Positions 9,683 through 36,546 of a stretch of DNA of 41,742 bases are shown piece after piece; position 1 is the first letter of the stretch; every line of letters begins with the position of its first letter. The stretch lies in the NCBI GenBank assembly GCA_949297055.1, contig CASFRI010000028.1, forward strand, positions 1 to 41,742, written 5' to 3'. Under the pieces are notes generated by a model. The model was not told the origin of the DNA. It did no database searches and saw nothing but the letters and a program-made list of their open reading frames with translations. The stretch comes from an uncultured bacterium. GTDB taxonomy: Bacteria > Bacillota_I > Bacilli_A > RFN20 > CAG-826. Made by a program: the position numbers and the translations under genes.

Positions 9683-11041
9683 TTAAATGATAATATTTTC
9701 ACTTAAAATATCGAATAAGTGAACTTTATCTAAATCAAAATGTAAATTTAAGACGTCATTTTCTTTGATGATCTTATCTTCCGCCATCACTTCAGCGACG
9801 ACTTCTTTTTCACCGATATTAAAATGTAAAGAATAGACGTTACCGAGCAATTCACTCAAGGTGATAGTGAAAGGATAATCTTTCGATTTCTTATAATTTA
9901 CTTCCCCTTCCGTCTCACGGTGTATATCTTCTGGCCTCACCCCAAAATAGATGTAATGAGGTTTACCTTCTTTCGCTAATTGGTAATTTTCGTTATTGGA
10001 AGTATATCTTTCTAATCTTTCTTTTAATTGTTTTAATGCTTTTTCTTCTTTTTCTTTACGTTTCTTCAAAGATTCTAATTTGCTAATTTCAGCTTTAACT
10101 TTGTTAACTTTTTCTAAATAATCAAAATTCGCATTTAAATAAAATTCATCATGTGCATTTTTAAATTTCGCACTCAATTTTAATTTATGTTCTCCTAATG
10201 TAATTTCTCCATCATCATATTTAACTTTGATAATGTTCGTCGCTGGTGAACCGATGAAAGTGGCGACGAAAACATTATTAGGACGAGTATAAATTTCTTT
10301 AGGCGTACCAATTTGTTGCACGTAACCATGACGCATGATGACGATACGATCCGCCATCGTCATCGCTTCAGTTTGATCGTGCGTAACATAAATTGTCGTC
10401 GCATTAATCTTACGATGTAGTTTAACAATTTCACTACGCATTTGGACACGCAACTTTGCATCTAAATTACTGAGTGGTTCATCCATCAAGAAAAGTTTTG
10501 CATCTCTAACAATTGCTCTACCTAACGCTACTCTTTGTCTTTGTCCACCACTGAGTTCAGCGGGTTTACGATCTAAATAATCATCAATTTCTAATATCTG
10601 AGCGGCTTTTTTCACTCTTTCTTTTATTTCATCTTTCGGTACTTTTCTCATCTTTAAACCAAAACCGATGTTTTGTTCAACATTCATGTGAGGATATAAA
10701 GCATAAGATTGAAAAACAAGAGCAATGTCTCGATCTTTTGGTGATAAAGAATTAGCCCTTATACCATCGATATATAAACTTCCAGTTGTGATATCTTCTA
10801 AACCTGCAATCATTCTTAAAGTTGTCGATTTTCCACAGCCTGAAGGCCCTACTAAAACGATAAATTCGTGTTTTGCAATATCAAGATTAAAATCAAAAAC
10901 TGCTTGCACACCATTAGGGTAAACTTTGTTAATGTGATCTAATTTGACAAATTCTTTGTTCGTGTCGATATCGATACTATGTAAAACTTCGACTTCTTCC
11001 ACCAGCTTTTCTTTCTTTTCTTTTTTCTTAAATAATTTCAT
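9683..11041 (-). CDS. msmK: sugar ABC importer ATPase (MsmK/UgpC type)
   Basis: A 452-residue ATP-binding subunit for MalFG-type sugar permeases. Walker [10 protein letters not shown] (65-73), signature LSGGQ (163-167), Walker B LFLMDEP (183-189) and switch His221 are all canonical, and a C-terminal TOBE region includes FGVRPEDI. Family members are usually ~370 residues. The excess is a lysine-rich N-terminal extension (1-30) and a highly charged coiled-coil-like insertion (about 300-360) inside the regulatory domain. The ATG at 11041 has AAGGAGG upstream. It presumably energises the permeases at 18310-20117 but may serve other importers too. Confidence 0.9.
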
Positions 11042-11053
11042 ATCTAGACCTCC

Positions 11054-11992
11054 TTACAAAGTTTTTACTTTTAGTTCTTTATTATTCTTAATAAACGCTT
11101 TCACTTCTTCAAGATGATGTAAAGAAGGGATCGCACCATTTTTAGTCGTCGTAAGCGCTCCCATCGCGTTCGCAAATTTAATTGCGTCAATAATTTTAAC
11201 ATTGTTAGAAAGAGCATACGCTAAAGCGCCATTGAATGAATCGCCCGCTCCAACTGTATCTACAGCGTTTACATCATATCCACTTATATGAACTTTATTA
11301 TCTTGAGAATATAATAACGCCCCATTGTTGCCTAAAGTCGTGACGATATTTTTCACGCCTTGTTCAAATAATTTTTTTGAAGCTTCTAAGCATTCTTCAA
11401 GTGAACTAGTCTTCATATCAGTTAATAAACCTAATTCAAATTCATTTGGAGTTAAGAAATCGATATATTTTAAATATTCTTCTTTAATTTTTCTTGCCGG
11501 TGCTGGATTCACTATTGTAATCAAATTATTTTCTTTAGCGAACTTAATCGCAGCCAATACTACTTCTTCTTGCATCTCAAATTGTGTTAATAATATATCG
11601 CTGCTTTGAATAATGTTTTTAACATCAGTTAAATCATCTAAATTAAAATCTAAATTCGCTCCTAAAATAATACAAATACGATTTTGCCCACTTTTATCAA
11701 TTTGGACGTTACCGACCCCGGTCGATATGTCACTTCTAAAAATATCTTTTGTATCGATATTTTCTTCTTTAAATAATCTAATAAAATTATCGCCAAATTG
11801 ATCATTTCCAACTTTTCCTATCATCTTCACTTCACCGTGAAGTCTAGCAATAGAAACGCATTGATTTGCCCCTTTCCCACCTAAAAAAGTTTGAAAAGAT
11901 TCCCCCACTACAGATTCACCTGCGTTCGGAAAACGTTCCATTCTAGACACTAAGTCAGTGACGCATGATCCTAAGATGACAATTTTTTTCAT
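11054..11992 (-). CDS. rbsK: ribokinase-family sugar kinase (PfkB)
   Basis: A 312-residue carbohydrate kinase phosphorylating the 5-hydroxyl of a pentose with ATP. PfkB signatures are FLGGKGANQCVSIARL (37-52) and DTVGAGDSFNGAL (245-257), with Asp251 as catalytic base. NPAPA and FLTPNEFE are characteristic of the ribokinase branch. No D-ribose permease, RbsD or RbsR lies nearby; instead it stands 2 bases after an arabinose-5-phosphate isomerase-like gene and 12 before the importer ATPase. Ribokinases are known to accept some D-arabinose. In this context I infer D-arabinose to D-arabinose-5-phosphate, with ribose as the conservative alternative. Confidence 0.88.
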   Translation of the reverse strand: MKKIVILGSCVTDLVSRMERFPNAGESVVGESFQTFLGGKGANQCVSIARLHGEVKMIGKVGNDQFGDNFIRLFKEENIDTKDIFRSDISTGVGNVQIDKSGQNRICIILGANLDFNLDDLTDVKNIIQSSDILLTQFEMQEEVVLAAIKFAKENNLITIVNPAPARKIKEEYLKYIDFLTPNEFELGLLTDMKTSSLEECLEASKKLFEQGVKNIVTTLGNNGALLYSQDNKVHISGYDVNAVDTVGAGDSFNGALAYALSNNVKIIDAIKFANAMGALTTTKNGAIPSLHHLEEVKAFIKNNKELKVKTL

Positions 11993-11994
11993 AA

Positions 11995-12591
11995 TTATTT
12001 ATTTAATTCCTTTTTTAAAGATTCCCCTAACGCTCCATTTGGGTGAAATTTGAAAAAATCTTCTTTAGTGAAGTGATAACTAGAAGATAGAGCAATCGCT
12101 AAGGCATCGCCTAACACTAAGGCTAAGGTAGAAGAGACGCTTGGAGCTAAATTTAATTCATCTGCTTCTTTCAAAGAAGGATAGATAATTTTATAATCGC
12201 AAGACGTAGCTAATAAAGAATCTTCTTTACTTGTAAAAGCAATTGTAACCGCTCCAATATTTTTAATAGGATAAATGTTTTGTGTCACCTCTTTGGTAGA
12301 ACCACTATTGGACATTAAAATGACGATGTCATCTTTTTCAATCATGCCTAAATCACCGTGGCATGCTTCCGTGCCATGAACAAAAAAAGAAGGTGTGCCA
12401 GTGCTTGCAAAAGTCGCGGCTAATTTCTTACATATATGACCTGATTTGCCAACACCAAGAAAGATAACTTTACCTTTTCTATCTTGGATAACTTCTAAAA
12501 CTTTATTCAAATTATCGTAATCTAAAGATTCAAACATCTTTTCGATCGCATTATATTCAGTTTTGATTACTCTTTTAATTTCATTTTCCAT
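11995..12591 (-). CDS. SIS-domain sugar-phosphate isomerase (KdsD/KpsF/GutQ type)
   Basis: A 198-residue protein equal to the isomerase half of D-arabinose-5-phosphate isomerases, without the two C-terminal CBS domains of the ~320-residue enzymes. Motifs: GVGKSGHI (46-53), STGTP, HGTEACHGDLGM, SNSGSTKE (94-101), ADELNLAPS and the terminal FHPNGALG. Family members interconvert D-arabinose-5-phosphate and D-ribulose-5-phosphate. No KDO or lipopolysaccharide genes are present, so a catabolic role is more likely. I prefer ATG 12591, which has AAGGA upstream; ATG 12609 overlaps the DUF4185 stop (ATGA) and would add six residues. A 6-phospho-3-hexuloisomerase is less likely given these motifs. Confidence 0.85.
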   Translation of the reverse strand: MENEIKRVIKTEYNAIEKMFESLDYDNLNKVLEVIQDRKGKVIFLGVGKSGHICKKLAATFASTGTPSFFVHGTEACHGDLGMIEKDDIVILMSNSGSTKEVTQNIYPIKNIGAVTIAFTSKEDSLLATSCDYKIIYPSLKEADELNLAPSVSSTLALVLGDALAIALSSSYHFTKEDFFKFHPNGALGESLKKELNK

Positions 12592-12605
12592 AATGATTAA
12601 TTCCT

Positions 12606-13820
12606 TCATTTGAAGACAATTTCAAAAAGTGAAGTGTTATAGATTGGTGACCACTGAGAAACTTGAAAATACATCTTCTGACCACCAAATTTAACGAAGT
12701 CATCATGGATGAATCCGCCATAACAACTTGTTATTTCTCTATGTGTTAAAACAAGCATTGATTGTTTAAATTCTTCAGTTAAATTTTCACTTAAATAAAA
12801 TTTGATACCTTCCTTCGTTAACGTGGAAATAATCCATTTATTTAAGTATTTATTAAACATGATAGATACTTCGCCTGTGCATTCTTTTTGAATTAAATAA
12901 TAAGGCTTTAATTTGATACCTTCCTTCAATTTTATAAACTTATTTTTATCGACTAAAAGTTCATATTTATCAAGATTTTCAAAATCATCTTTTTTTACTC
13001 TTAATAAGGAAGGATGACCAAATCTTCCACCAGGAATAGTTAAAAGATAAACATAATCATCTTTAAAGAAAGGATAAATTTGCCCAAAACGAGGAGAGAA
13101 CTTTTCTTCAATTTCTAATCCTTCCACTTTTTCAAAATGATTTAATGCATCTTCTTTAGCTTTATAGCAACAAGTGGAAGTGACGAACCATTCACCCGGT
13201 TTACCCCAGTAACGGACGTGCATTAAGAAAATGTAAACGTAGCCATTTAAATAGATGCCGCCAGTAGGAATTTTCGTCACTTCTTTGCGTAAAGAAATAT
13301 CTAAATTTTCTTCCTTGTTGCGATCGTGCTTACCTTGTTTAATCGGTGCAATATCACCAAATTCATTCGTGACTACACCTTGAAATTTAATACCTTCGTC
13401 GAAGTTAATATTTTTCTTGCTATAAGCAATGAAATTAGAATTCCAATAACCGTCATTAACATCAAATCCGCTAAAAGTATCGCCGTATAAATATAAATAT
13501 TTATTAGGAGTAGAAACGACGATGCCTAAATCGGTCATATTCGCCTTCGAAGCATTTAATACTTCACTATTTTTCGATTTACGTCCGGTGACGAAACCAA
13601 TACGATGAACATATTCAATATTTTCATCTAAAGAAAAACTATCTTTTGGCTTAATTGCCACATCAAGATGAAGTTTCTTACCTTTTGGATAATAGGCCAT
13701 CACTCTATTTGGCAAATAGACACGAGAAGGAACATAACTTGTATCTAAATCGTATTCATATAATCTAGATTTAGCTTCATCAATTGTATTATTTAAAACA
13801 TTCGGTATTGGAAAATTCAT
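12606..13820 (-). CDS. DUF4185 (GH183-like) protein, cytosolic paralogue
   Basis: A 404-residue protein without signal peptide. Residues 4-57 (IPNVLNNTIDEAKSRL...) look like one PASTA repeat, and about 70-404 are DUF4185, a beta-propeller family now including endo-D-arabinanases (GH183). Asp97 (TDLGI) and Asp114 (YGDTFSG) are kept in both local paralogues and are natural catalytic candidates. Other shared blocks are GYWNSNFIA, EVTKIPTGGI, IPGGR and QWSPIYNTSL. A cytosolic copy would act on imported oligosaccharides. GAGGAG precedes the ATG; the gene follows its lipoprotein paralogue by 11 bases and overlaps the isomerase region by ATGA. Confidence 0.82.
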   Translation of the reverse strand: MNFPIPNVLNNTIDEAKSRLYEYDLDTSYVPSRVYLPNRVMAYYPKGKKLHLDVAIKPKDSFSLDENIEYVHRIGFVTGRKSKNSEVLNASKANMTDLGIVVSTPNKYLYLYGDTFSGFDVNDGYWNSNFIAYSKKNINFDEGIKFQGVVTNEFGDIAPIKQGKHDRNKEENLDISLRKEVTKIPTGGIYLNGYVYIFLMHVRYWGKPGEWFVTSTCCYKAKEDALNHFEKVEGLEIEEKFSPRFGQIYPFFKDDYVYLLTIPGGRFGHPSLLRVKKDDFENLDKYELLVDKNKFIKLKEGIKLKPYYLIQKECTGEVSIMFNKYLNKWIISTLTKEGIKFYLSENLTEEFKQSMLVLTHREITSCYGGFIHDDFVKFGGQKMYFQVSQWSPIYNTSLFEIVFK

Positions 13821-13831
13821 ACTTCACTCCT

Positions 13832-15166
13832 CTACTTCAAAATCACTTCTACGAGGCTGGTGTTATAAATTGGGGTCCACTGCGAAAGTTGGATGTAAAT
13901 ACGTTTTCCATCACTATCGGAAATTAAAGGAGTGATGAAACCGCCATACAAACCAAAATAATCACTCGCATCGATGACAGGATAAACTTCATCGTATGGA
14001 CCACTTATCTTATCAGCGACTAAAAGATTGATCGAACTACCTTTCAATGTCGCGATGAGATATTTGTCTAAATATTTGCTATACATAATAGATGGTTCAG
14101 CCACGGATGGATCAGCGACGTAATATGGATTAGAGTTTAGTTCACTCATCCCTTCATCGCCTTTTACCCAAGTGTCTTCATCCACTAGATATTCATATTC
14201 ATCACGGTTTTCAAAGTTTTCCGTCGCTACTCTAAACATCACCGTGCCATCATTTCTTCCACCAGGAATAGAAAGAAAGTAAATATGTTCGCTATCATTT
14301 GGATCAGCGTAAGGATAAATTTGACCGGCGTAATATAATTCATCCTCATTCCATCTCAAAGATGGAACTTCCACCCATTCTTGATACGTATCATCTGTCG
14401 CTTTTAAACATTGGTTGTAACTAACAAGCCAACTACCAGCGACACCCCAATAGCGGATGGACATGTAGAAAATGTAAACTTCATCATTAACGGTTATACC
14501 ACCTGTTGGAATCTTTGTGACTTCGGTTCCAATATTTTCAAAAGTGTCTTCTTGATGCGCTCCTTGAGCGAAAGGTTTAATCATGCCGACATCATTTGTA
14601 ACGACGCTATCAAATTCTAAACCATCGTAGAAAACTGTATCGCTTGTAATGGCCATGAAATTGGAATTCCAAAAGCCTTGCATGTTCGCCCCACTAAAGG
14701 TGTCACCGTAAAGTAACATTAACCTACCATCAGGAAGTCTGAAAGGAATACCTAAATCCGTCCCATACGCGCCAGCGTTAAGTAAGATATCAGCGTTTGG
14801 ACTATCAGGACCAGTGACGTAATCGATGACGTTATAATAATCCACTAAGGCACTATCGATATTAATTGCGGAGTCTTGTCTTTTTGCGACGTTAATTTTG
14901 ACGCGTGTTCCTTTTTCTACTTCATCACCAGGTTCTAAGTCATCAGCATAACCAAGAATTCTTCCTTCGATAAGTTCGCTCGTCTTCACTTCGACTTCTT
15001 CGAAAAGTAAGTCCGCTCCGACTTGTAGTTTAGCGTCTTTCACTTCGAGCCCATAAAGGTCTGGAAGGATGAAGGGATCATCGACCCCCTCATCCCCAGG
15101 TTGACAGGAAGATAACCCAAAACATGCAGTGAGTAAAATAGGGATGATTATCTTCTTACCTACCAT
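13832..15166 (-). CDS. DUF4185 (GH183-like) lipoprotein
   Basis: A 444-residue surface lipoprotein: signal MVGKKIIIPILLTACFG, lipobox LSSC with Cys21, an acidic linker, one PASTA-like repeat (about 34-94), then DUF4185 (about 105-444). Asp137 (GTDLGI) and Asp155 (YGDTFSG) match the paralogue's Asp97 and Asp114. DUF4185/GH183 includes endo-acting D-arabinanases on arabinogalactan and lipoarabinomannan, so this is the likely outside enzyme cutting polymer to importable pieces. The ribosome site is weak (AGAAG), and the stop of the upstream gene is 3 bases away, suggesting coupling. The tandem pair looks like a duplication followed by change of location. Confidence 0.82.
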   Translation of the reverse strand: MVGKKIIIPILLTACFGLSSCQPGDEGVDDPFILPDLYGLEVKDAKLQVGADLLFEEVEVKTSELIEGRILGYADDLEPGDEVEKGTRVKINVAKRQDSAINIDSALVDYYNVIDYVTGPDSPNADILLNAGAYGTDLGIPFRLPDGRLMLLYGDTFSGANMQGFWNSNFMAITSDTVFYDGLEFDSVVTNDVGMIKPFAQGAHQEDTFENIGTEVTKIPTGGITVNDEVYIFYMSIRYWGVAGSWLVSYNQCLKATDDTYQEWVEVPSLRWNEDELYYAGQIYPYADPNDSEHIYFLSIPGGRNDGTVMFRVATENFENRDEYEYLVDEDTWVKGDEGMSELNSNPYYVADPSVAEPSIMYSKYLDKYLIATLKGSSINLLVADKISGPYDEVYPVIDASDYFGLYGGFITPLISDSDGKRIYIQLSQWTPIYNTSLVEVILK

Positions 15167-15169
15167 AAA

Positions 15170-17230
15170 CTATTTCTTCTCTCTATTCGCTTTTCTCTTT
15201 TTGAAAACGAAATGATAGACTAGATATCCTGCGACGGCAAGAATTATGACACCACCGGCGACGGATAGGCCAATAATTAGACCCATATTATCATTTCCGC
15301 CATCAGGAGTAGTTTCTCCACCGCCTGAACCACCTAGAACAGTGACAATAATGGAATCAGTTTTTCCATTTGCACTCGTCACGGTAATTTCAGTTGAACC
15401 AGCACTAATAGCGGTTACTAAACCATTTTCATCAACCGTAGCCACTTGTTCATTTGAACTTGACCAGGTTAAAGTTTTATTTTCAGCATTTGTCGGTTCG
15501 ATAGTAGCGCTTAGTTGCACGGTTTGACCAACGTTTAATTCTTGGTCGCCTTGATTGATAGTTACACTTGTTACATCAACTGTTGGAACTTCATCACTTA
15601 AGAAATGAATTGCAACATTATCTAAATAGAAGTAATCGCCTGCCGCAAGTGGGGTAATGAGCCATCTAACACTATTCCATTGCACTTTATCCATCGCTAC
15701 TTGGAAGTCGACAGTGACTCTTGTGTAGCCATTATCTAATTGTTCAGTGCGAATTGGATAAGGAATGTTTTCATTCCCACTTGTATTTTTATAAGATTCA
15801 TCGACACCAAGACGTTTGAAGTTGACTGAATAATATGGAGTGTTCGCCCCGCCGACGAAACATTGATAAATTTCCATGTAGTTAGCAAGATCGCTACTAA
15901 CAGTAAGTTTATAATCGTAACTTAATCTAATTAAATCACCAATTTGAATTGTATCTGGTGTCATTAAGAACATAGAAGAATAAGCATGTGTGTCACTTGG
16001 ATCACTTCTTCCAATGCGAGCGACCTTATTACCGTTATCGTCGACTATTTGCCCTGGAGTGTCCAAACTAACGCTACCCCATGCGCCTTCAAGTTGCGTT
16101 TCGCTTAATACAGTGCCAGCATCGAAAGCTTCAAAGTCACCATTGACGACTTGATTTTTGCCTTCGTAATATTCTTTATCTGGATCGAAAGCGGAAACGT
16201 AAGTTGGGCGAATGTAAATCGCACTAATTTCGATATCGTCCGTGCCTTGATATTCAAGTTGCACACGCGCTGCGTTATCAATCGTTTCAAAGGCTGTCGT
16301 AAAAAGATTTTCTTCTAAGTTAGAAGTATCGCCACTGACGATAATTTCAAACGTAGTAAGTGAAGTATTAGTGTCATCTAAAACGTTCAATGTAAGATTT
16401 GCATCACTACTCACAACACTTGCTACTTCGACATCTAATTGATAGTTATCTTCATCTAAACCGTCGATCAATGCACCGTAAACACCATCGTTAGAAATGA
16501 TAGCTTTATTTGTGCCTAATGCTGCATTTTCGCCATAAATCCCGTTTTCATTTGGTTCGGAAGTTAGTTCACTTGGCGAAGCATAATCTAAAAATCCTTC
16601 AAAGTCACCGCCACTTACGATATTTTCACTCGTACCAGCTTTAACTAAGGAAACGTTATCAATATAAATGGTTGCAGAAGTAACATTCATCCACATTTGT
16701 AATGAATCGTAAGTTTGATTGCCATCAAATGTTCTTTCAGCTTTTGCGTTTTTCCAGCCATCACTTAAGTCGGTGAAAGTGACATTTTGATTTTGATTAG
16801 GATCCATAATGTTCGTTTCAGGAAGACGATTTCCGGCGGATGGAGACCAGAATGCAAAACCAATATTATCAGTTGTTCCTTCTACTTTATAGTCGAAAGA
16901 AATTGTGTAAGTTGCACCACTTTCGATTGTAAGTAGTTTAAAGAAACTAGAAAAACCTGTCCCGCTTGCGCGAATAACTGTGTTATCATTTAACATGCAA
17001 GCGACCGGGGGGATATCCACGCCACTTACACCAAAACCAGCTACTATACCTTCGGATGGTGCATTAGATGGAAAAACATATTCCCCTGCGCTTAAACTAA
17101 AATCGCCATTAGGAAAAATATTTTCCCCATAGATGAGGTTAGGATCATCGGCTCGTGCAGTGAACGACATGAGCGATAAGGCGGCTACCAACGTCACGCC
17201 TAGACCTCCTATTTTTTTAAGTTTTCGCAT
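15170..17230 (-). CDS. surface-anchored protein with CBM-like repeats and a Big_2 domain
   Basis: A 686-residue protein with a signal peptide (cleavage near SFTARA-DD) and a C-terminal membrane anchor (about 653-676) followed by KKRKANREKK. It has no LPXTG motif. Three modules begin with the carbohydrate-binding-like signature N-x-x-x-GDF: IFPNGDF (about 39), VSGGDFEGF (about 205) and VVNGDFEAF (about 363). A bacterial Ig-like Big_2 domain spans about 553-635 (VTSVTINQGDQELNVGQTVQ, then LTWSSSNEQVATVD). There is no catalytic domain I recognise, so it most likely holds glycan at the cell surface. AAGGAGG precedes the ATG; the gene lies between the GH172 enzyme and the DUF4185 lipoprotein in the same operon. 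Confidence 0.8.
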   Translation of the reverse strand: MRKLKKIGGLGVTLVAALSLMSFTARADDPNLIYGENIFPNGDFSLSAGEYVFPSNAPSEGIVAGFGVSGVDIPPVACMLNDNTVIRASGTGFSSFFKLLTIESGATYTISFDYKVEGTTDNIGFAFWSPSAGNRLPETNIMDPNQNQNVTFTDLSDGWKNAKAERTFDGNQTYDSLQMWMNVTSATIYIDNVSLVKAGTSENIVSGGDFEGFLDYASPSELTSEPNENGIYGENAALGTNKAIISNDGVYGALIDGLDEDNYQLDVEVASVVSSDANLTLNVLDDTNTSLTTFEIIVSGDTSNLEENLFTTAFETIDNAARVQLEYQGTDDIEISAIYIRPTYVSAFDPDKEYYEGKNQVVNGDFEAFDAGTVLSETQLEGAWGSVSLDTPGQIVDDNGNKVARIGRSDPSDTHAYSSMFLMTPDTIQIGDLIRLSYDYKLTVSSDLANYMEIYQCFVGGANTPYYSVNFKRLGVDESYKNTSGNENIPYPIRTEQLDNGYTRVTVDFQVAMDKVQWNSVRWLITPLAAGDYFYLDNVAIHFLSDEVPTVDVTSVTINQGDQELNVGQTVQLSATIEPTNAENKTLTWSSSNEQVATVDENGLVTAISAGSTEITVTSANGKTDSIIVTVLGGSGGGETTPDGGNDNMGLIIGLSVAGGVIILAVAGYLVYHFVFKKRKANREKK

Positions 17231-17255: not shown

Positions 17256-18305
17256 TTAATATTTTAAAGGTAACCTATCTTCAACCGCTAAAATTTTCTT
17301 ATTATTTTCCCAGGGCTTATCCAAATAGAAATAAGCAGTCGAAGAAAGATCGTCATTGCGGTTATTGTTATGACCGCCTTCGATCGTTACCTTGATAGAT
17401 TTTTTAAATGTAATCGGATCTAAAATATGATAACGGAAATACGTTATCTTACCTTTCCAATTTTCATCTCCGCCTAAAATAATGCCGTGATATAAAGAAG
17501 AATAAACTTGACGAGGGCACCAAGCCATATTGACATAGTCTTCCGTGCCAGTCCCACGAAGTGTTAAATTTTCATCTCCATCGATAAAAATCATGTCGTC
17601 TCCTTCTCCTGGCCAATCCCATTCTTTTTCTTTATTAAAATTATCAATATTAAGATTACATCCGACGTAATGACCTTTTCCTTCGACATTTAAAATAACA
17701 TAGTTATTTTTTCCGTCCTTATTAAACCCACTAAATTGAAAATCTTGACGAGTTTTATATTGTTTATAGTCAAAGTTTGGATCAGGTAATTTTCGATTCC
17801 AATAAGCGTGGAAATATAAAATATCTTCATCAAATTTTACTTCTTCATAATCGATGTAATAGTAAAGCATCAACGTTGTATCGCCCTCGTTAACAATTTC
17901 AATTTTGGCAGCTTTTTTAAAAGGCATAGGGAAGAAACAATTAAATCCTTTTCCATTTTCCGGTGACATCTGCAAAGGAGCGCTGACGAAGTTTTTAGAC
18001 ATAGCGTGTCCCATGCCAAAGAAATCACCAAGCGGAGTTAGAACTTGAGGAAATTTAGAATCTTCCCAATAAATTTTTAAAAGAACTTTTCTTAAAACAT
18101 TTTCTTCTTCTTTATCGCCTTCATTTAGTTCAGTCATCCAAATATGTTCAATCAATCCACTTGTGTGAACATCAAATATTGTTTTAGTCTCATTTGGTTT
18201 GATGTAAATTCTATCATCATTCCCTCCCGTAGGATCATAAGATGAAACTCTTTTTCTAATACCATCTTTTGGTAAATAAATATTTGATAAAGTATGTGTT
18301 TTCAT
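17256..18305 (-). CDS. DUF2961 / GH172 glycoside hydrolase
   Basis: A 349-residue cytosolic protein covering the whole DUF2961 domain, now CAZy GH172. Characterised members are alpha-D-fructofuranosidases, difructose-anhydride enzymes and exo-alpha-D-arabinofuranosidases. The family motifs are GEGDD (Glu234) and GTGTEDY (Glu255). The two Glu are 21 residues apart, as I expect for the catalytic pair. Other blocks are SGLIEHIWMTEL and TPLGDFFGMGH. Family enzymes often form trimers. Next to two DUF4185 proteins and an arabinose-5-P isomerase, a D-arabinofuranosidase role is favoured over fructofuranosidase. It starts 4 bases after the MalG-type gene; GGAGTG lies upstream. Confidence 0.85.
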   Translation of the reverse strand: MKTHTLSNIYLPKDGIRKRVSSYDPTGGNDDRIYIKPNETKTIFDVHTSGLIEHIWMTELNEGDKEEENVLRKVLLKIYWEDSKFPQVLTPLGDFFGMGHAMSKNFVSAPLQMSPENGKGFNCFFPMPFKKAAKIEIVNEGDTTLMLYYYIDYEEVKFDEDILYFHAYWNRKLPDPNFDYKQYKTRQDFQFSGFNKDGKNNYVILNVEGKGHYVGCNLNIDNFNKEKEWDWPGEGDDMIFIDGDENLTLRGTGTEDYVNMAWCPRQVYSSLYHGIILGGDENWKGKITYFRYHILDPITFKKSIKVTIEGGHNNNRNDDLSSTAYFYLDKPWENNKKILAVEDRLPLKY

Positions 18306-18309
18306 AAAT

Positions 18310-19200
18310 TTATTTCACTCCTGTTAATGCAATACCGTCACGAATAAATCTTTGGACGATAAAGAAGACGACCACCGCAGGTAAAATAGCGATGAATGAA
18401 GCCGCTAAAACCGCTCCATAACCTAAAGTTGAACTATCACCATAAAGCGAATTAATCAAAGTCATAATTTGTGTTAAACCCTTATGTTCAGTATCGATTG
18501 TTAAAGTTGGCCATAAATAAGCATTGAAGTAACCAATAAACGTTCCTGCACCCATGATGACCATCGGAGTAATAGAATTAGGAAGATAAATCTTAAAAAA
18601 GATTTGTATACTATTACATCCATCCACTCTCGCTGCCTCATCGTAATCTTTAGGGAAACCTAAATAAAATTGTCTAAAGAAGAACATGTTATATGCGTTT
18701 GCGACACCGGGAATAACTAAGACCCATATCGTGTTCATCATACCTAAAGAAGCGACGACGGAAACAGATGTTAATAAGATAGTAATACCTGGAATAAACA
18801 TCGTGGCGATGACGATGACCCAAAGAACTCGTTTGAAGGGAAATTCAAGTCGAGCGAAGGCATAGCCCGCTAAAGAATTAACAAATAAAGAGAAAGTCAT
18901 ACCTAAGACCGCTACTAAGATCGTCATACCAAAACTTTGGAAGAAATTGACGCCGACGGTCGTATATTGAAGATAGAATAAACGCGAGAAATTATCGATT
19001 GTCCAATTGTAAGGGAAGACATGAAAATCGATTGAAAAGATTTCTTGTCGATCTTTAAACATCGAAATAATCGTGAAAAATAAAGGAATAAATAAGCAAA
19101 GTAAAACGAAGATGATAATAGCGTAAAGTCCAATGCGGATGAAGACGTTACTAACTTTCTTACGTTTTTCTAATTTTAAAACTTCAGCTTCGGAAATCAC
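18310..19200 (-). CDS. sugar ABC transporter permease, MalG/UgpE type
   Basis: A 296-residue membrane protein with six predicted segments and the EAA loop that docks the ATPase, EAARVDGCNSIQIFFKIYLP, about 190-209. The C-terminal IQRFIRDGIALTGVK is typical of the UgpE/MalG class. It pairs with the MalF-type permease, whose stop overlaps its start by ATGA, and with the binding lipoprotein upstream. The substrate is inferred to be arabinan or other oligosaccharides from the enzymes downstream. Confidence 0.93.
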   Translation of the reverse strand: MISEAEVLKLEKRKKVSNVFIRIGLYAIIIFVLLCLFIPLFFTIISMFKDRQEIFSIDFHVFPYNWTIDNFSRLFYLQYTTVGVNFFQSFGMTILVAVLGMTFSLFVNSLAGYAFARLEFPFKRVLWVIVIATMFIPGITILLTSVSVVASLGMMNTIWVLVIPGVANAYNMFFFRQFYLGFPKDYDEAARVDGCNSIQIFFKIYLPNSITPMVIMGAGTFIGYFNAYLWPTLTIDTEHKGLTQIMTLINSLYGDSSTLGYGAVLAASFIAILPAVVVFFIVQRFIRDGIALTGVK

Positions 19201-20117
19201 GCAACTTTTCTCCTTTTATTTTTCACATTAGTGAGGCTGAACACAACCGCGTTAATAGCCCCGATAAATAACATAATTAAAATTGATGAAGCAATAATTT
19301 CGCTTTGCGAAACATTACCGTTCGCTCTTGCGTGTATCAGATATAAAACTGGTGTCATCGTCGCATTAACGGGTTGACCATTAGTCATGATCATCGGAAT
19401 TTCAAACATTTGTAAATTCGCTGTCACTAGAGTGACGATGATTAAAACAAAATAATTTTTTAATTGTGGTAAGACGATGTACCAAGTAATTTTAAAGAAA
19501 CCGGCACCATCAACTTCCGCCGCTTCGTAATAATCCTTAGGAATATTAATTAAACCTGAATAGAAAATTAAGGTCGTATAACCGCTTCCTACCCAAATAG
19601 TAGGAACAATAATTGCAACGTAAGCCCAGAATTCATTCATCGTAAACGAGATAGGATCAGCGTTGAACCATTCCCCTAAGATGCCATTTATAACTCCACC
19701 ATTGTAATAAGTTAAGAGAGTGAAGATACATCCGACGACGATACCAGAAAATAGATATGGTAAATAAATAATTGTACGAACGAAGACACCGAACTTATTT
19801 TTTACTCTTACTAAGACATTCGCGAAGATAAATGAGATGCTAACTTGTAAGATGACGACGAATAAAGTCATCAAGCAAACATTACCTAAAGATTTAAGAA
19901 ATTCTTTATTTTGAAACACCTTAACATAATTATCAAACCCCGCAAAAACAGCTTCATTTGGTCCAGATTCGAAATAGAAGAAACTTCGATAGATGGACAT
20001 GATAAGAGGAGTGATAACAAATATCGCTAACAAAATGACCGCTGGTGCGATTAAAAGTAAACCAGAAACTTTCTCTTCTTTTTTACGATCTTTTGGCAGG
20101 ATATGGAAGCGTTTCAT
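19197..20117 (-). CDS. sugar ABC transporter permease, MalF/UgpA type
   Basis: A 306-residue membrane protein, six predicted segments, with EAA loop EAAEVDGAGFFKITWYIVLP (about 207-226). The N-terminal stretch KVSGLLLIAPAVILLAIFVI is the usual first helix of UgpA/LacF-like permeases. It starts 2 bases after the binding protein stop and overlaps the MalG-type gene by ATGA, so binding protein, MalF and MalG are translated in series. Confidence 0.93.
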   Translation of the reverse strand: MKRFHILPKDRKKEEKVSGLLLIAPAVILLAIFVITPLIMSIYRSFFYFESGPNEAVFAGFDNYVKVFQNKEFLKSLGNVCLMTLFVVILQVSISFIFANVLVRVKNKFGVFVRTIIYLPYLFSGIVVGCIFTLLTYYNGGVINGILGEWFNADPISFTMNEFWAYVAIIVPTIWVGSGYTTLIFYSGLINIPKDYYEAAEVDGAGFFKITWYIVLPQLKNYFVLIIVTLVTANLQMFEIPMIMTNGQPVNATMTPVLYLIHARANGNVSQSEIIASSILIMLFIGAINAVVFSLTNVKNKRRKVA

Positions 20118-20119
20118 AA

Positions 20120-21487
20120 TTATTGTCTCGGATTGTTATTTGCTAAATTATCTCTAACGATGATGCTTTGCACTTCTTGGTGACACGCTGCCACGACATC
20201 ATCAATATTTTCACCCATTGCTGCTTCTTCAAGTAAACCTTCGACAGAAACAGAAATATCCCAACTATAGATAGGTTCTAAGACTGCTCTTGAAGCAACG
20301 TAATTAATTGTTTCATACCATTCGCTAGGAATAGTTGTTTCTTCTTCCATCTTCGCATCTAAGATAGCTTGAACAGATTTACGAGGTGAAACTTTAGAAT
20401 AGAAAGCTCTTGTAAAATAATCGACTGTTTGAGCAGTATCTTCCGCCGTTAAGAATTTGATAACTTCCACTGCCATTTCGACATTTTCACATTCGCTAGA
20501 AATGACGTAAACCCAACCACCATTCGTCGCAGTTACTGTATCTTGATTACCATCGAATGTTGGCATGATAGCAAAACCAATATTTTCAATCATTTCAGGA
20601 TATTGATTAGCGATCGTAGCAATGGACCAACTACCGCACGTCGTCATGATGGCTTTCCCATCACAAACATCGAACACTGATTCAGTGTAATCGCCGCTGG
20701 ACAATGGAACGTAACCGTTTCCATATAAAGTTTGCCATACTTCCGCTAGTTTAGCGTAGCCTGGTTCCATAATTCTAGAAGTTGTCCAATCATCAGTGAT
20801 GGCAAGTCCACCTGTGGCAGCATATTGCATACCCCAAGTACCCCAAGCACAAGCAACACCAGTAGGAACACCAAATGGATAGACGTTTCTTTTTCCTTCT
20901 GCTACTAAGTTAGTTTTGATTGTAGCGCAAAGTTCTAAAAATTCATTCCAAGTAGTTGGAATACTAGTCGTATTACCATAAGTTTGAAGTAAGTCTTTGC
21001 GATAAGCGATAATGGTTGATGGTTCCATGACGATTGGGAAACCATAATATTTACCATCGTATCTTACCCCTTCAGTAGCAGTTTCAGTTAAATCATTCCA
21101 CACATCCTGATCAAAATAGCTCGTGATGTCGATAGCGCGACCCGCATTAATTTCTTTATATAAGTTTCCGTATGAAACTGTATAAATATCAGGTACGCTA
21201 TTAGATTCATAGGCGCCACGAATTAAATCGTCAAACGAATTTGAATCGATGTAAGTTTGTGAAAGCTGGATACCATCATTAAGGTTATCGTTAAATAACA
21301 TTCTATGATCAATGTTGATACGATTTTCCCATTCTTCAAAATCCATCATCCACATCTTAATTTCCGTTGCGCCATCTTCAAACTTTTCTTCTTTGTCGTT
21401 GATGTCGATGTCATCTGGTGGTTCACAAGATAGTAAACTAAAGGTTGATGTAAGTAAAATTATAGGCAAAATGTACGATTTGCGCAT
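20120..21487 (-). CDS. sugar ABC transporter substrate-binding lipoprotein
   Basis: A 455-residue extracellular solute-binding protein of the family-1 (MalE/UgpB-like) type. The signal MRKSYILPIILLTS leads to lipobox SLLSC with Cys21. The fold is recognised from the RKDLLQTYGNTTSIPTTWNE block, the GKAIMTTCGSW block and the NGGWVYVISSECEN block, the classic ligand-cleft segments. GGAGG precedes the ATG at 21487 and a putative promoter lies just upstream, so this is the first gene of the main operon. Ligand specificity cannot be read from sequence. Confidence 0.92.
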   Translation of the reverse strand: MRKSYILPIILLTSTFSLLSCEPPDDIDINDKEEKFEDGATEIKMWMMDFEEWENRINIDHRMLFNDNLNDGIQLSQTYIDSNSFDDLIRGAYESNSVPDIYTVSYGNLYKEINAGRAIDITSYFDQDVWNDLTETATEGVRYDGKYYGFPIVMEPSTIIAYRKDLLQTYGNTTSIPTTWNEFLELCATIKTNLVAEGKRNVYPFGVPTGVACAWGTWGMQYAATGGLAITDDWTTSRIMEPGYAKLAEVWQTLYGNGYVPLSSGDYTESVFDVCDGKAIMTTCGSWSIATIANQYPEMIENIGFAIMPTFDGNQDTVTATNGGWVYVISSECENVEMAVEVIKFLTAEDTAQTVDYFTRAFYSKVSPRKSVQAILDAKMEEETTIPSEWYETINYVASRAVLEPIYSWDISVSVEGLLEEAAMGENIDDVVAACHQEVQSIIVRDNLANNNPRQ

Positions 21488-21545
21488 AAGCTGTCCTCCA
21501 TTTGTGTTATTACACTTTAATTATGTGAAAAAATCCTTCTAATTC

Positions 21546-21624: not shown

Positions 21625-22497
21625 CTAATTTTTATTTTTTCTTAATTTAGCTTTCTTGTATTCCGTCGGATAACGTCCATCTAATTTATAGAACCATCGG
21701 GAGAACGTTTGAGGGACATCGAAATTTAAAATCTCAGAAATTTCTTTTATAGATTTAAATGAATATCTAATTAAGTTCTTTGCGTATTGTAGGCGCAGTC
21801 GGTCATAATATTTTTTCGGCGTCGTCTTATAAGTTTTCTTAAATAAATCGTTTAATGTCCAACTTGTAAGATTTGTTTTAAGTTCAAAATCTCTTAAGGT
21901 CAAATTTGTTTGAAGATTTTCAGCCATATATCTCACTAGAAGGCTCAAAGTGTCACTCTTTTTATCTTCTTCATGGTAGCCAATATGTTCTTCTATCAAA
22001 GTTGCAATTAATACTTTCAATAAACCTTCTAGATGAAATTCTTTGATTTCGCTATCGAAAGTATAAACATCGATCAAACGTAAAATTAAATCTCTAAAAC
22101 GCGATGGATTTTTTAAATGAATTACACGTGGTAGATTAATACCATGTTCTTTTAAATAATCTTCGCGGAAGTACGTGAGTTCAATCTCGCGCATATCTTC
22201 TTTTCTTTTCATCGATACTGGGATGATTGAGGAAAGTTCATCTTTATTAAAATCGAAGTGAACGTGTGGTTGGCAGCAATTAACTTGATACCACGTAATT
22301 TTATGATGTTCATTCGGGCGAATGAAGACGGCATTCCCTTCTTTTACGATATATTTTTCATCATCAAATTCAATTTTCATCATACCTTTATCGATGTAGA
22401 TAATTTCATGATCATAAATTGAACGATCTGCATAATAATCGTAAAGCCAAGTATGATACATAGCGAGTCGAATGTAAGGCTTAAAATCTAGTTCCAT
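21625..22497 (-). CDS. AraC-family transcriptional regulator
   Basis: A 290-residue regulator. About residues 1-150 form a cupin-like sensor (HEIIYIDKGMMKIEFDDEKY, EGNAVFIRPNEHHKITW), and about 190-285 form the paired helix-turn-helix domain (LTLRDFELKTNLTSWTLNDL; IKEISEILNFDVPQTFSRWF; PTEYKK). It sits directly upstream of the operon on the same strand, so it most likely activates that operon in response to a breakdown sugar. The sensor of this class often binds the inducer directly. Two paired-HTH sites would be expected near 21575-21620; I could not define them. Confidence 0.9.
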   Translation of the reverse strand: MELDFKPYIRLAMYHTWLYDYYADRSIYDHEIIYIDKGMMKIEFDDEKYIVKEGNAVFIRPNEHHKITWYQVNCCQPHVHFDFNKDELSSIIPVSMKRKEDMREIELTYFREDYLKEHGINLPRVIHLKNPSRFRDLILRLIDVYTFDSEIKEFHLEGLLKVLIATLIEEHIGYHEEDKKSDTLSLLVRYMAENLQTNLTLRDFELKTNLTSWTLNDLFKKTYKTTPKKYYDRLRLQYAKNLIRYSFKSIKEISEILNFDVPQTFSRWFYKLDGRYPTEYKKAKLRKNKN

Positions 22498-22897: not shown

Positions 22898-24886
22898 TTA
22901 ATTTAGCAAAAAATCATGACTTAAGGTTACATTATCAACGTCTTTATTAATTTCGATACGATATAACCCAGGTTCAAAAACGAAGGTATGGTAATTTGTG
23001 TTGTAATATTTAAAATCATCTAAAAATAAAGTGAACTTAATTAGAACTTCTTCATTTTTTCTAAGATAAATTTTATCGAAACGTTTTAATTCACGTTTGG
23101 GTCGATAAACGTTTTTAGTTAATGGCTCAATGAAAAGTAAAACAGTTTCTTTTGCATCATATTCACCTATATTTTTAATCTTAAATGATACTTCTAATTC
23201 TTCATCTGGTTTAGTTCTATAAATCTTTAAATCGCTATAAAGGAAATTCGTATAACTTAAACCATAACCAAAAGGATATAGCACTTCTTTATGATGTGTA
23301 GTGAAATAGCGATAGCCTACATCTAAACTTTCTGCATATGAAATCACCGATTCATCAATGTAAGTAGATGAAGATGGATAATCATTTAAAGATAAGGCAA
23401 AAGTTTCTGCGAGTCTTCCTGAAAAAACTTCTTCGCCTGAAATAAGTTTAGCAAGTGCATCACTAACATTTTCGCCAGCAAAACCCACATAAACGATACA
23501 ATCGACATCATCTTTTACTTCATTTAATTCAAAAGCTCCGCCGCCATAGACTAGTAAGATAATTTTTTTATTTGTAGACTTAGCTCTTTTAATAGCAAAT
23601 ATTTCTTCGTTTGCGAGTTTTAAATCTTGACGGTCAAAATCTTCACTAAATAAAGTTCTATCGCCTCCCACTCCTATAATAAGTACGTCATTTCCATGTG
23701 CTTTAGCAATAAATTGTTTAAAATTACCCATGACCATTGAATGTGCTCTATTTTCATAAACAATTTCGCCTTCATCAATGCTTAAATAACCATTTTCTTT
23801 TAAAGAAGTCGCTAAAGTCTTAAAAGGCTTATCAAGGGCGATAATTGAACTGCCCCCACCATTAAAATATCTGAATGTAGGTGCACCGCCTATTAGGATT
23901 TTTGTTGATTTATCTTTTAATGGAAGCAAGTTGTTTTTATTTTCTAATAATATAATTCCTTCTAACGCAACATCTAAGGCTAGAGCTTTTCTTTCTTTTA
24001 AAGTTTTTTGAACTTTTCTTAATGTTTTTTCTTCTTCGTTTTTCTTAATTAAATCCAAAACTTTTTGTGCTGCTTTTTTTAAGGCTTCTTTATCTAATCT
24101 TCCATTCTTTAAATCTAAGAGCAATTTATCTTCTAAATTTTTATCATAAGGCATGATGAGATGTAAACCAGCGTTAATTGAAAGAGTCGGATCTTTGACC
24201 GCTCCCCAGTCCGATATTATTAAACCATCAAAGCCATGAGAGTAAGCAAAACCATAAAGAGGTTTATTTTCACTCATTCTCACACCATTTAATAAATTAT
24301 ATGAACACATTAAAGTCCAAGGTTTGGCCTCAAACGCTCTTTTAAAATTAGTAAGATATATTTCTTGTAAAGTTCTTTCATCTACTTCACTACTTACCCA
24401 ATTTCTTTGATATTCGCTATTATTGCAAATGTAATGTTTAAGGCTACTTCCAACATGTTTTTCATTTAATCCTTGAATATATGATTTAGCGATTTCACTA
24501 CTTAGATAAGGATCTTCGCTATAATATTCAAAGTTCCTTCCACATAACGGATTCCTTTTTATATTAATTCCTGGAGCGAGCAAAATATCTAATTTTCTTT
24601 CTATGAGGTCGTCCGCGATGCTTTTTGCATATTCTTTCGCAAGTTTAATGTTAAAAGTTTGAGCTAATACTTCACTAGAAGGATAAGAAGTTGAAGGTAT
24701 TTCTTTTTCCTCATCCACGAGTGATGAGTTTAAAGTACTTCTTACCCCTACTGGGCCATCGCTAACATAAACAGTAGGTAATTTATTATTTAAATCATTA
24801 GTCTGCCAAAAGTTCTTTCCCATGACTAATTTAATCATTTCTTCATAGGTGTAATTTGACGCTAAATATACATCTTTATTATTCAT
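22898..24886 (-). CDS. glycoside hydrolase family 3
   Basis: A 662-residue cytosolic GH3 enzyme: an N-terminal TIM-barrel domain (about 30-300), an alpha/beta sandwich (about 320-530) and a C-terminal fibronectin-III-like domain (about 560-660). The nucleophile is Asp226 in IISDWGAV, and KHYICNN and the NPLCGRNFEYYSEDP block are typical. GH3 enzymes release beta-linked glucose, xylose, arabinofuranose or GlcNAc; this one cannot be assigned. I start at 24886 (MNNKDVYLAS), where GAGG lies 8 bases upstream, not 16 codons earlier. No signal peptide, so it acts on imported oligosaccharides. It is upstream of araC on the same strand. Confidence 0.9.
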   Translation of the reverse strand: MNNKDVYLASNYTYEEMIKLVMGKNFWQTNDLNNKLPTVYVSDGPVGVRSTLNSSLVDEEKEIPSTSYPSSEVLAQTFNIKLAKEYAKSIADDLIERKLDILLAPGINIKRNPLCGRNFEYYSEDPYLSSEIAKSYIQGLNEKHVGSSLKHYICNNSEYQRNWVSSEVDERTLQEIYLTNFKRAFEAKPWTLMCSYNLLNGVRMSENKPLYGFAYSHGFDGLIISDWGAVKDPTLSINAGLHLIMPYDKNLEDKLLLDLKNGRLDKEALKKAAQKVLDLIKKNEEEKTLRKVQKTLKERKALALDVALEGIILLENKNNLLPLKDKSTKILIGGAPTFRYFNGGGSSIIALDKPFKTLATSLKENGYLSIDEGEIVYENRAHSMVMGNFKQFIAKAHGNDVLIIGVGGDRTLFSEDFDRQDLKLANEEIFAIKRAKSTNKKIILLVYGGGAFELNEVKDDVDCIVYVGFAGENVSDALAKLISGEEVFSGRLAETFALSLNDYPSSSTYIDESVISYAESLDVGYRYFTTHHKEVLYPFGYGLSYTNFLYSDLKIYRTKPDEELEVSFKIKNIGEYDAKETVLLFIEPLTKNVYRPKRELKRFDKIYLRKNEEVLIKFTLFLDDFKYYNTNYHTFVFEPGLYRIEINKDVDNVTLSHDFLLN

Positions 24887-25132
24887 TATGTTTTCCTCAC
24901 TTATATTAATAATCTTAAACAATAAATATTGCAAGATAGAAAAAGCATAATTAATTTGTGATTCCTAAATTATACATATGAGCTTTAATCATTCTATTAA
25001 TACTTTAAACTAAAAAATTTTAGCTTATGTCTATTAGTGGTAAGACGTTATTTCACTTTTGCATCGATATAAAGCAAAACATCTACTAAAAAAAAGGCAT
25101 ATTACACTTATTTAAAGCGCCGGTTTTATCGT

Positions 25133-28495: not shown

Positions 28496-29818
28496 TTAGT
28501 ACTTTAACTCTTCATCAAAATTATACATCCACTCAACCCAAGCTTTAATTGTGGAAGCTCTTCGATTTAAAGTTGATTCGGATAGTTTTTTATTTCCTGT
28601 GTCTTCCAATAGACTTTTCTTTATTACACCAACATCTATCTTTTTAGAATCAAAAAACATCAGATAATACTTTTTAAACGTGTCGTTATTGAGAAGCTGA
28701 GAGTGAATGTTCTTTTTGACTTCCATTTCATTGGTTTTGATAGATTTTGCCAATTCAGTGAACTTTTTATCGTGGGTAATATATTTTAGAAAAAGAAGCG
28801 CAGACAAATAATAAGCAACTTGTCTTGATGTTCCGACTTGAATAAGCTCCATAGCTTTATCCTTGTCATTCAGCACTTCCTCATCAGCCATCACAAGCTT
28901 AATAATTTTCGTCATGTCATTAGCTTGAGGAAAGGGGATGTTGTTATTCATTCCCCAGAAAATTGCTTCTCTTCCAGTCTTTCTCTCAGAACCCAAACAG
29001 TTTATTGAGCGGAGTGTTGTGAATTTACTGACGTCATAAAAAATCTTATAGTTTGGATCCTGCTCAAATAATTCAATGACTCTTTGAGTAGCGTTGTTGC
29101 TAATGATATCAAATGCCCCACGATTAATCGTTTTATCACATTCTTTTTTAAGTTTGACAAAGTCTTCAAATTCAAATCCTGTCATTTGATATTTGGTGAA
29201 ACCATCATCATCTTCATAGTCATAAGGCGGATCAATATAAATCACATCTCCGTCTTTTGCTTTTGCAAGAGTAATCTCGTAGGAATTACTAAAAATCCTA
29301 ATGTCATTTTCTTTAGCGCTGAGGTATTCGTGAATCTCTCTTAGATTATCTCTATCACAAATCGTAGGATTCTTATATCTTCCTATCGGGGTATTAAACT
29401 GTCCTTTTAAATTAACGCGATATAATCCGTTGTAACAAGTACGATTAAGAAAAATCATTCTAGCTGCTCTTTCGACATCAGTGTGATTGCTTGGCCATCC
29501 AGTTTCTCTATCCCAAGCTCTTACTTCGTAATAATATCCATCAGGATCATCAAAATAGGCTTTAGCATGTTCATCTAAAAGAGCGATTAAAGACTCAATT
29601 TCGTTTGATTGGATAACTTTATAAGCATTAATTAAATCGTCATTTAAATCACTGATTATAGCTTTTCTAGGAGCAAGGTCAAAGAAAACAGCACCACCGC
29701 CAAGGAATGGTTCGATATAAGTGTAGTTTTCGTTATCGGCTATTGAATCTTTTATGAATTCTTGAATGCGACCAAGTATTTGCCTTTTACCGCCAGCCCA
29801 TTTTACAAATGGTTTCAT
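28496..29818 (-). CDS. Dam-type DNA adenine methyltransferase with C-terminal extension
   Basis: A 440-residue protein. Residues 1-~290 are a class-alpha N6-adenine methyltransferase of the Dam/M.DpnII group: FVKWAGGKRQIL at the N-terminus, EPFLGGGAVFFDL (AdoMet binding, 36-48) and the catalytic DPPY at 196-199. Typical Dam enzymes end at ~280 residues; here ~150 more (AMELIQVGTSRQVAYYLSAL ... STLNRRASTIKAWVEWM) resemble a helical module appended to some restriction enzymes and methylases. The recognition site cannot be read. Last gene of the five-gene operon, 3 bases after the DUF6339-like gene, and likely to protect self DNA. Confidence 0.88.
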   Translation of the reverse strand: MKPFVKWAGGKRQILGRIQEFIKDSIADNENYTYIEPFLGGGAVFFDLAPRKAIISDLNDDLINAYKVIQSNEIESLIALLDEHAKAYFDDPDGYYYEVRAWDRETGWPSNHTDVERAARMIFLNRTCYNGLYRVNLKGQFNTPIGRYKNPTICDRDNLREIHEYLSAKENDIRIFSNSYEITLAKAKDGDVIYIDPPYDYEDDDGFTKYQMTGFEFEDFVKLKKECDKTINRGAFDIISNNATQRVIELFEQDPNYKIFYDVSKFTTLRSINCLGSERKTGREAIFWGMNNNIPFPQANDMTKIIKLVMADEEVLNDKDKAMELIQVGTSRQVAYYLSALLFLKYITHDKKFTELAKSIKTNEMEVKKNIHSQLLNNDTFKKYYLMFFDSKKIDVGVIKKSLLEDTGNKKLSESTLNRRASTIKAWVEWMYNFDEELKY

Positions 29819-29821
29819 TAA

Positions 29822-30574
29822 TTATTTGTTCCCATTTAGTAATTCTAGCATCTTTTCATAAATCATTCTTTCAATATCTTCTTCAGATATCTTATCTAGT
29901 AGTCTGACGCTGCCGATGACGGATACATATTTACTAATTTCTGGGTAAATATCGTTATCTTCGGCGCCACCAAATTCTTCTAAAGCTCGTTTTTCTCCTC
30001 TTAAAATTCCTCTAACAAGATGTTCTTCAGATGAAAAAGCTCTCCAAGTTAAGTTTCTAAATCTTTCAGGATTATTAATTACCCACTTGGTTAATTCATA
30101 TTTGTTTTCACCTTTTGATTCATCAACAGTCAACGCCACACGAAAGAAGCATCTTGAAAGTACACCAAACATGAGTCCTCTTCTGGTACCTTGAATATGC
30201 ATCCAGTGGTCTTTAATAGTTGATTCACCTCTAACTCTCATCATCTTTTTGCTTACGAGATAGAATTTTTCAAAGTGAAGCCAGAGCCAGAATTTTTCAT
30301 CACAAACAATGTATCTTGGCAATTCTTTTAAAGTTTCATAAATGGTTACTGAATTTTTGAAGTCAATATATTTATCGCCACTATCTGGATTGTCTTGAAG
30401 CTCAAAGTCAGATATTTCAATTTTCTTTTCTACAAACATTGGTTGCGGAAAAGCTGAATAAATCCATTTATTATTATCGTTCTCCTGAATGTTTTTAGTA
30501 ACGCTTGCTAAATTCTTTTTTAAATAAAGCAATGCATTTTCACTTAATAATTTAATATGAATTTTATTAGGCAT
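29822..30574 (-). CDS. DUF6339-like protein
   Basis: A 250-residue soluble protein. The pattern IKLLSENALLYLKKNL near the N-terminus, IYETLKELPRYIVCDEKFWLWLHFEKF and the later RGLMFGVLSRCFFRVALTVDESK match my memory of DUF6339, an uncharacterised family found beside DNA methylases. The conserved DExxW and R-x-S-R blocks could be functional, but no nuclease motif is evident. AGGAGGT precedes the ATG; it overlaps the upstream gene by 8 bases and the methylase follows 3 bases later. Confidence 0.6.
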   Translation of the reverse strand: MPNKIHIKLLSENALLYLKKNLASVTKNIQENDNNKWIYSAFPQPMFVEKKIEISDFELQDNPDSGDKYIDFKNSVTIYETLKELPRYIVCDEKFWLWLHFEKFYLVSKKMMRVRGESTIKDHWMHIQGTRRGLMFGVLSRCFFRVALTVDESKGENKYELTKWVINNPERFRNLTWRAFSSEEHLVRGILRGEKRALEEFGGAEDNDIYPEISKYVSVIGSVRLLDKISEEDIERMIYEKMLELLNGNK

Positions 30575-36507: not shown

Positions 36508-36546
36508 GGAAGATACCTCGATTAGATGATATATCAACGAGAACAA

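Follow-up and report, generated by a model that had tools for sequence, protein, structure and literature searches.

Cell walls of the mycobacterial type contain D-arabinan, an unusual polysaccharide. Operons for its utilisation are already known, as are ribokinases and single-domain isomerases. In the PUL of Microbacterium arabinogalactanolyticum (PMC10509167), GH183 endo-D-arabinanases, a GH172 exo-alpha-D-arabinofuranosidase and an SBP_bac_8 ABC importer are found together with GH116 and what is described as a 'putative isomerase and kinase', with D-ribulose 5-phosphate (Ru5P) as the entry product. PUL42 of Dysgonomonas gadei, of the Bacteroidetes type, degrades D-arabinan with GH172 and GH183 and metabolises D-arabinose through fucose-pathway isomerisation (PMC10115798). 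Fucose-pathway isomerisation of D-arabinose is also described for a Campylobacter fucose cluster (PMC11365321), and non-phosphorylative oxidation is another route (PMC6336799). A scheme in PMC11591822 shows nucleoside synthesis in vitro with a ribokinase and an arabinose-5-phosphate (A5P) isomerase used together. We found no report in the open-access papers searched of a natural catabolic kinase-first D-arabinose route that is swapped for a FucI-ribulokinase module and is sometimes fused.

We analysed a DNA stretch of 41,742 nucleotides from an uncultured, gut-type bacterium of the CAG-826 lineage (contig CASFRI010000028.1; hereafter, the window). It carries an operon laid out like the Gram-positive D-arabinan PUL of Microbacterium, with which it shares GH183, GH172, the SBP_bac_8 importer and, as predicted, the entry product; where that PUL has GH116 and the 'putative isomerase and kinase', the window operon has a ribokinase-family kinase and a KpsF-type SIS protein. 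The operon resembles PUL42 in combining GH172 with GH183 and differs from it in that PUL42 isomerises first. Based on sequence comparison, we consider it very likely that the operon serves D-arabinan utilisation and that the kinase and the SIS protein are the module through which the sugar enters metabolism, converting D-arabinose to A5P and A5P to Ru5P, with phosphorylation ahead of isomerisation where the reverse sequence is usual.

The gene pair and the surrounding operon

The pair comprises a ribokinase-family (PfkB) kinase (11054..11992, 312 aa), a proposed D-arabinose 5-kinase, and a KpsF/KdsD-type SIS protein without CBS domains (11995..12609, 204 aa), a proposed A5P isomerase. The initial annotation had placed these genes 2 bases apart and described the isomerase as devoid of its CBS half, and both points were borne out: both ORFs, encoded on the minus strand, are uninterrupted and have only positions 11993-11994 between them, and the SIS protein matched the TIGR00393 KpsF/GutQ model only at profile positions 1-154 of 268. 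The SIS gene ends at 11995 and starts at 12609 or at 12591 (198 aa); the latter start is plausible, with AAGGA upstream of the 12591 ATG and several homologues of 198 aa. At least 15 other species have the kinase and the isomerase side by side or as a fusion, so their pairing is not a chance arrangement.

The initial annotation had missed the operon context, namely the two DUF4185 (GH183) genes and the DUF2961 (GH172) gene next upstream of the pair. The pair ends an operon, all on the minus strand, that is predicted to be a D-arabinan utilisation locus. An AraC-family regulator (21625..22497) is conserved at the operon head, and is followed by an SBP_bac_8 solute-binding lipoprotein (20120..21487; match 5.1e-28), which may bind D-arabino-oligosaccharides, and by ABC importer permeases of the MalF/UgpA type (19197..20117) and the MalG/UgpE type (18310..19200). 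Next come a DUF2961/GH172 protein (17256..18305; PF11175 match 1.3e-77), a putative intracellular exo-alpha-D-arabinofuranosidase, a secreted Big_2-domain protein with a C-terminal membrane anchor (15170..17230), and two DUF4185/GH183 proteins (PF13810, E-values of 7.5e-56 and 1.8e-44). One of the latter is a lipoprotein (13832..15166) and a candidate cell-surface endo-D-arabinanase, while the other (12606..13820) is a candidate endo-D-arabinanase for imported oligosaccharides; by eye, neither this second GH183 protein nor the GH172 protein has an evident signal peptide. Directly downstream of the pair lies an MsmK/UgpC-type ABC ATPase (9683..11041), the proposed energiser of the importer.

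The catalytic Asp pair of the GH183 proteins (D137 and D155) is invariant. Their closest solved relative is the endo-alpha-D-arabinanase EndoMA1 (8hhv, 8ic1); the mutation in 8ic1 is D51N (PMC10509167), and this Asp-to-Asn site aligns with D155 of the window lipoprotein. In the GH172 protein, Cys263 corresponds to Gly299 of alphaFFase1, the residue that admits fructose, and the same Cys is found in DgGH172c, which has D-arabinofuranosidase activity.

Several further features of the operon were recorded. The Big_2 protein is present in most D-arabinan operons (32-52% identity across those aligned); it is probably a surface glycan-binding protein, and likely a new one that binds D-arabinan. The N-termini of the GH183 proteins at 12606-13820 and 13832-15166 resemble PASTA weakly (18.2 and 14.1 bits; cut-off 23.2). 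PASTA domains bind peptidoglycan, the attachment site of arabinogalactan. The importer genes (permeases and SBP, 18500-21500) have about 99% DNA identity to those of a congener (L058/L041), and identity falls abruptly near 18500, with values of about 76-93% on both sides of the block. This block could stem from a recent transfer or conversion of genes, or from MAG chimerism. Upstream of the AraC gene, a GH3 gene (22898-24934) is present in the congener as well and was seen in none of the other operons; among curated models it comes closest to exo-alpha-(1->6)-L-arabinopyranosidase, with a score far below cut-off (462 vs 1300 bits). A promoter scan gave 56 matches vs 70.8 expected. Outside the operon, the window encodes a D12 adenine methyltransferase followed by matches to the PADLOC candidate defence system PDC-M33 A, B and C (28496-33418), and further candidate defence genes at 35209-36546, 37181-38071 and 40074-41273 (PDC-S01 (AAA_14/DUF4143), a Fic-type protein (PDC-S04) and a PtuA/AriA-like ATPase).

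We infer every reaction of the pathway from what was observed: which genes are present and in what order, the families they belong to, the conservation of their catalytic residues, how the genes co-occur, exclude one another as modules or are fused, and the pocket substitutions. The GH183 lipoprotein would cut D-arabinan outside the cell, and the SBP-permease-MsmK importer would take up the resulting oligosaccharides, its presumed substrate. Inside the cell, the second GH183 protein and GH172 would release D-arabinofuranose, which the ribokinase-family enzyme would phosphorylate at O5 to A5P; the SIS enzyme would then convert A5P to Ru5P, which would enter the pentose phosphate pathway via ribulose-5-phosphate epimerase. 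Sugar chemistry suggests a reason for the kinase-first order: the furanose would be released with a free 5-OH, on which a 5-kinase could act before pyranose closure.

The isomerase and the sugar pocket of the kinase

The SIS protein had a SIS domain match of 2.6e-26 in the family profile search. It scored 184.7 bits against TIGR00393, below the cut-off of 203.7 because the CBS half is absent. A 6-phospho-3-hexuloisomerase identity was rejected, as the HxlB model gave 54.5 bits vs 184.7 for KpsF. All five positions matching K59, H88, E111, E152 and H193 of E. coli KdsD, which we take to be functional residues of the A5P isomerase, are kept. The best solved relatives are a phosphosugar isomerase (5uqi), the E. 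coli A5P isomerase (2xhz) and a Bacteroides protein (3etn). The single-domain A5P isomerases among them (E. coli CFT073 c3406-type, PDB 5uqi; Bacteroides, 3etn) are likewise SIS proteins without CBS and have the same catalytic residues, so the trait itself is unremarkable. Unlike the window pair, however, the single-domain gene of E. coli CFT073 lies in a PTS operon without a ribokinase.

A single clade of pair-linked SIS proteins was rejected (AU p 3e-69). The SIS halves of the kinase-isomerase fusions come from a different subfamily and cluster with the SIS genes of loci L109-L115 (support 100/99), and the pairing thus arose at least twice. Loci L109-L115 represent a separate CBS-less SIS subfamily (GKPxHVA, TEAVHGSSG) in other Bacillota, where the SIS genes lie among small genes that, by size alone, suggest PTS components.

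The kinase had a PfkB match of 8.8e-67 in the same kind of search. It scored 332.6 bits against the bacterial ribokinase model TIGR02152, above the cut-off of 299.65, and 283.9 against the E. coli-type PRK11142 model, below the cut-off of 341. It has 36% identity to E. coli RbsK, with which it shares the catalytic Asp255 and most ribose contacts (Asp16, Gly42, Lys43, Asn46 and Glu143, E. coli numbering), but the ribose contact Asn14 is replaced by Val (Val11 in the window), and Ala98 by Gly94. We compared 17 isomerase-linked kinases with 59 unlinked ones (58 Bacillota ribokinases and E. coli RbsK). Position 14 was V, M or I in all 17 linked kinases and in none of the unlinked ribokinases (43 N, 8 G, 6 S, 1 H, 1 A). 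Position 98 was G or S in 14 of the linked kinases, the other three keeping A98, vs 1 of 59 unlinked ribokinases (57 A, 1 G, 1 Y).

These counts represent about two lineage changes, and are a consistent pattern rather than independent trials. In the kinase tree the fusions stood apart from the other 15 linked kinases, and since a single clade was not rejected (AU p 0.388), we dropped the claim of a convergent pocket change. The pocket substitutions are suggestive, yet insufficient, because the human and Thermus ribokinases, which are weakly active, presumably share one or other of the residues at positions 14 and 98. The weak activity of these two enzymes is on D-arabinose (PMC9604405). In E. 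coli RbsK, Asn14 contacts ribose and formed no bond to arabinose in MD simulation, and the A98G change raised kcat on D-arabinose 15-fold (PMC9604405). The literature values for E. coli RbsK on D-arabinose are a Km of 470 mM and a kcat of 1.9 per s (PMC9604405).

Co-occurrence, module exchange and fusion

Across 279 genomes of the order, 11 matched DUF4185, 8 of them at full length. The isomerase was found beside the full-length GH183 gene in 8 out of these 8 genomes, vs an isomerase in 6 of the 271 others (Fisher 3.6e-12, kinship ignored). Those six comprise G057, G107, G273 and three genomes with a distant SIS without a kinase. The pair locus of G057 carries GH172, the pair of G273 lies at a contig end, and the pair locus of G107 (L047:45-15624) contains GH116, LacI, RbsD, SIS, kinase and ABC genes. 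Both GH172 and GH116 are families with exo-D-arabinofuranosidases (PMC10509167). Two large proteins of L047 (45-1844 and 4275-7328) may be further D-arabinan enzymes.

In a phylum sample of 392 genomes, every CBS-less KpsF-type SIS with more than 40% identity had a kinase adjacent (G000, G089, G057, G425 and G519), and the pair loci of G425 and G519 carry DUF2961 (GH172) genes without GH183. The SIS protein of G434, with 343 aa, is of CBS-bearing length and had no adjacent kinase among the matches.

The GH183 scan of GTDB genome contigs recovered 29 loci. The operon backbone (AraC, SBP, permeases, GH172, Big_2 and GH183) was combined with SIS and kinase in the window, L058-L061, L063-L065, L068 and two fusion operons, while L084 had SIS and kinase with GH183 only. 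In the latter locus (L084:11268-13909, Clostridia MAG), the genes after the pair encode LuxS and a protein of the nucleoside phosphorylase family. The same backbone was found with FucI and ribulokinase in L062, L066, L067 and L069, and partly in L073, whose importer is more distant; these operons would isomerise and then phosphorylate, and are without the SIS-kinase pair. FucI and ribulokinase exceeded NCBIfam curated cut-offs in the examples checked. Three further GH172 loci of the order lack the pair: L181 and L182 have FucI, and L180 has neither module. None of the 34 loci that we counted by hand had both modules (Fisher p 0.008, kinship ignored).

According to the importer-gene tree, the distribution of the modules requires at least four changes, and well-supported branches force each of the four; for instance, a node with 100/99 support joins L065 (SIS-kinase) and L062 (FucI) as sisters. 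Since the cassette is exchanged with FucI-ribulokinase, the functional claim can be tested directly. Finally, kinase and isomerase are fused in one ORF of 530-534 aa in two genomes, G135 from roe deer rumen and G209 from horse faeces. The fusions share 68% identity and adjoin importer, GH172 and GH183 genes. A plasmid search with DUF4185 gave unrelated actinobacterial DUF4185 genes only, and one with the fusion gave ordinary ribokinases, or a ribokinase by MurR/RpiR regulators, with no fusion annotated among the matches listed.

Alternative explanations and implications

The kinase exceeds the ribokinase equivalog cut-off and is the one ribokinase of the window's genome, with no second, as would be expected of an ordinary ribokinase for scavenged ribose; the SIS protein would then act on something unrelated, and the adjacency would reflect a convenient operon order. 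We regard this as unlikely, given that a ribose route would need a ribose-5-phosphate isomerase and not an A5P isomerase, that the pair takes the place of FucI-ribulokinase within one type of operon and is fused in two species, and that linked and unlinked kinases share no residue at position 14. Moreover, G209 and G425 each have another ribokinase, which is unlinked and carries S14 or N14. A D-fructofuranose polymer as the target, with the pair handling another furanose, would suit the inclusion of alpha-D-fructofuranosidases in GH172, the resemblance of the window GH172 to alphaFFase1 (PDB 7v1v) as well as to D-arabinofuranosidases, and a protein with a weak GH32 C-terminal domain nearby in G057. 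The only known activity of GH183, however, is that of a D-arabinanase (PMC10115798, PMC10509167), the window GH172 has the Cys of DgGH172c in place of the Gly that admits fructose, and the alternative module of FucI and ribulokinase fits D-arabinose, not fructose, which leaves this target highly improbable.

KdsD and KpsF enzymes of Gram-negatives work biosynthetically, from Ru5P to A5P, and the isomerase could have the same role here, supplying A5P for a sugar resembling KDO or for a surface glycan that contains D-arabinose. The equilibrium of such isomerases also favours A5P (PMC11591822). Yet a kinase making A5P from the free sugar would be redundant in that direction, and the neighbours are all importer and hydrolase genes. 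The initial annotation had seen no KDO genes in the window, and for the A5P-consuming step this holds genome-wide: no DAHP_synth_1/KdsA-family gene was found in the genome, which is 97.85% complete. On the basis of this absence we rejected a KDO role, and a biosynthetic role of any kind is barely credible.

The catabolic route from D-arabinose through A5P to Ru5P, already proposed in that annotation on the basis of just the two genes, gains support from the operon context, the mutual exclusion with FucI-ribulokinase, the fusions, the pocket substitutions and the lack of a KDO-8-P synthase. The window's genome has a ribulose-5-phosphate epimerase (Rpe) and no match to FucI, which was also absent in 14 of the 16 pair-bearing genomes searched, G239 and G057 having one elsewhere in the genome. 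Overall, we consider it probable that the kinase-first pathway evolved as an alternative to FucI-ribulokinase, that it came together two or more times with isomerases of different subfamilies, and that it moves as an exchangeable cassette among D-arabinan operons of one type, being served by a dedicated D-arabinose 5-kinase derived from ribokinase, and sometimes condensed into a single bifunctional kinase-isomerase.

If this is true, A5P isomerase would have a catabolic role outside KDO synthesis, and the kinase would be a naturally specialised D-arabinose 5-kinase, a function at which engineered ribokinases are still poor. Ribokinase annotations in D-arabinan operons are probably wrong on substrate, and the module would provide a new marker for D-arabinan-eating organisms.
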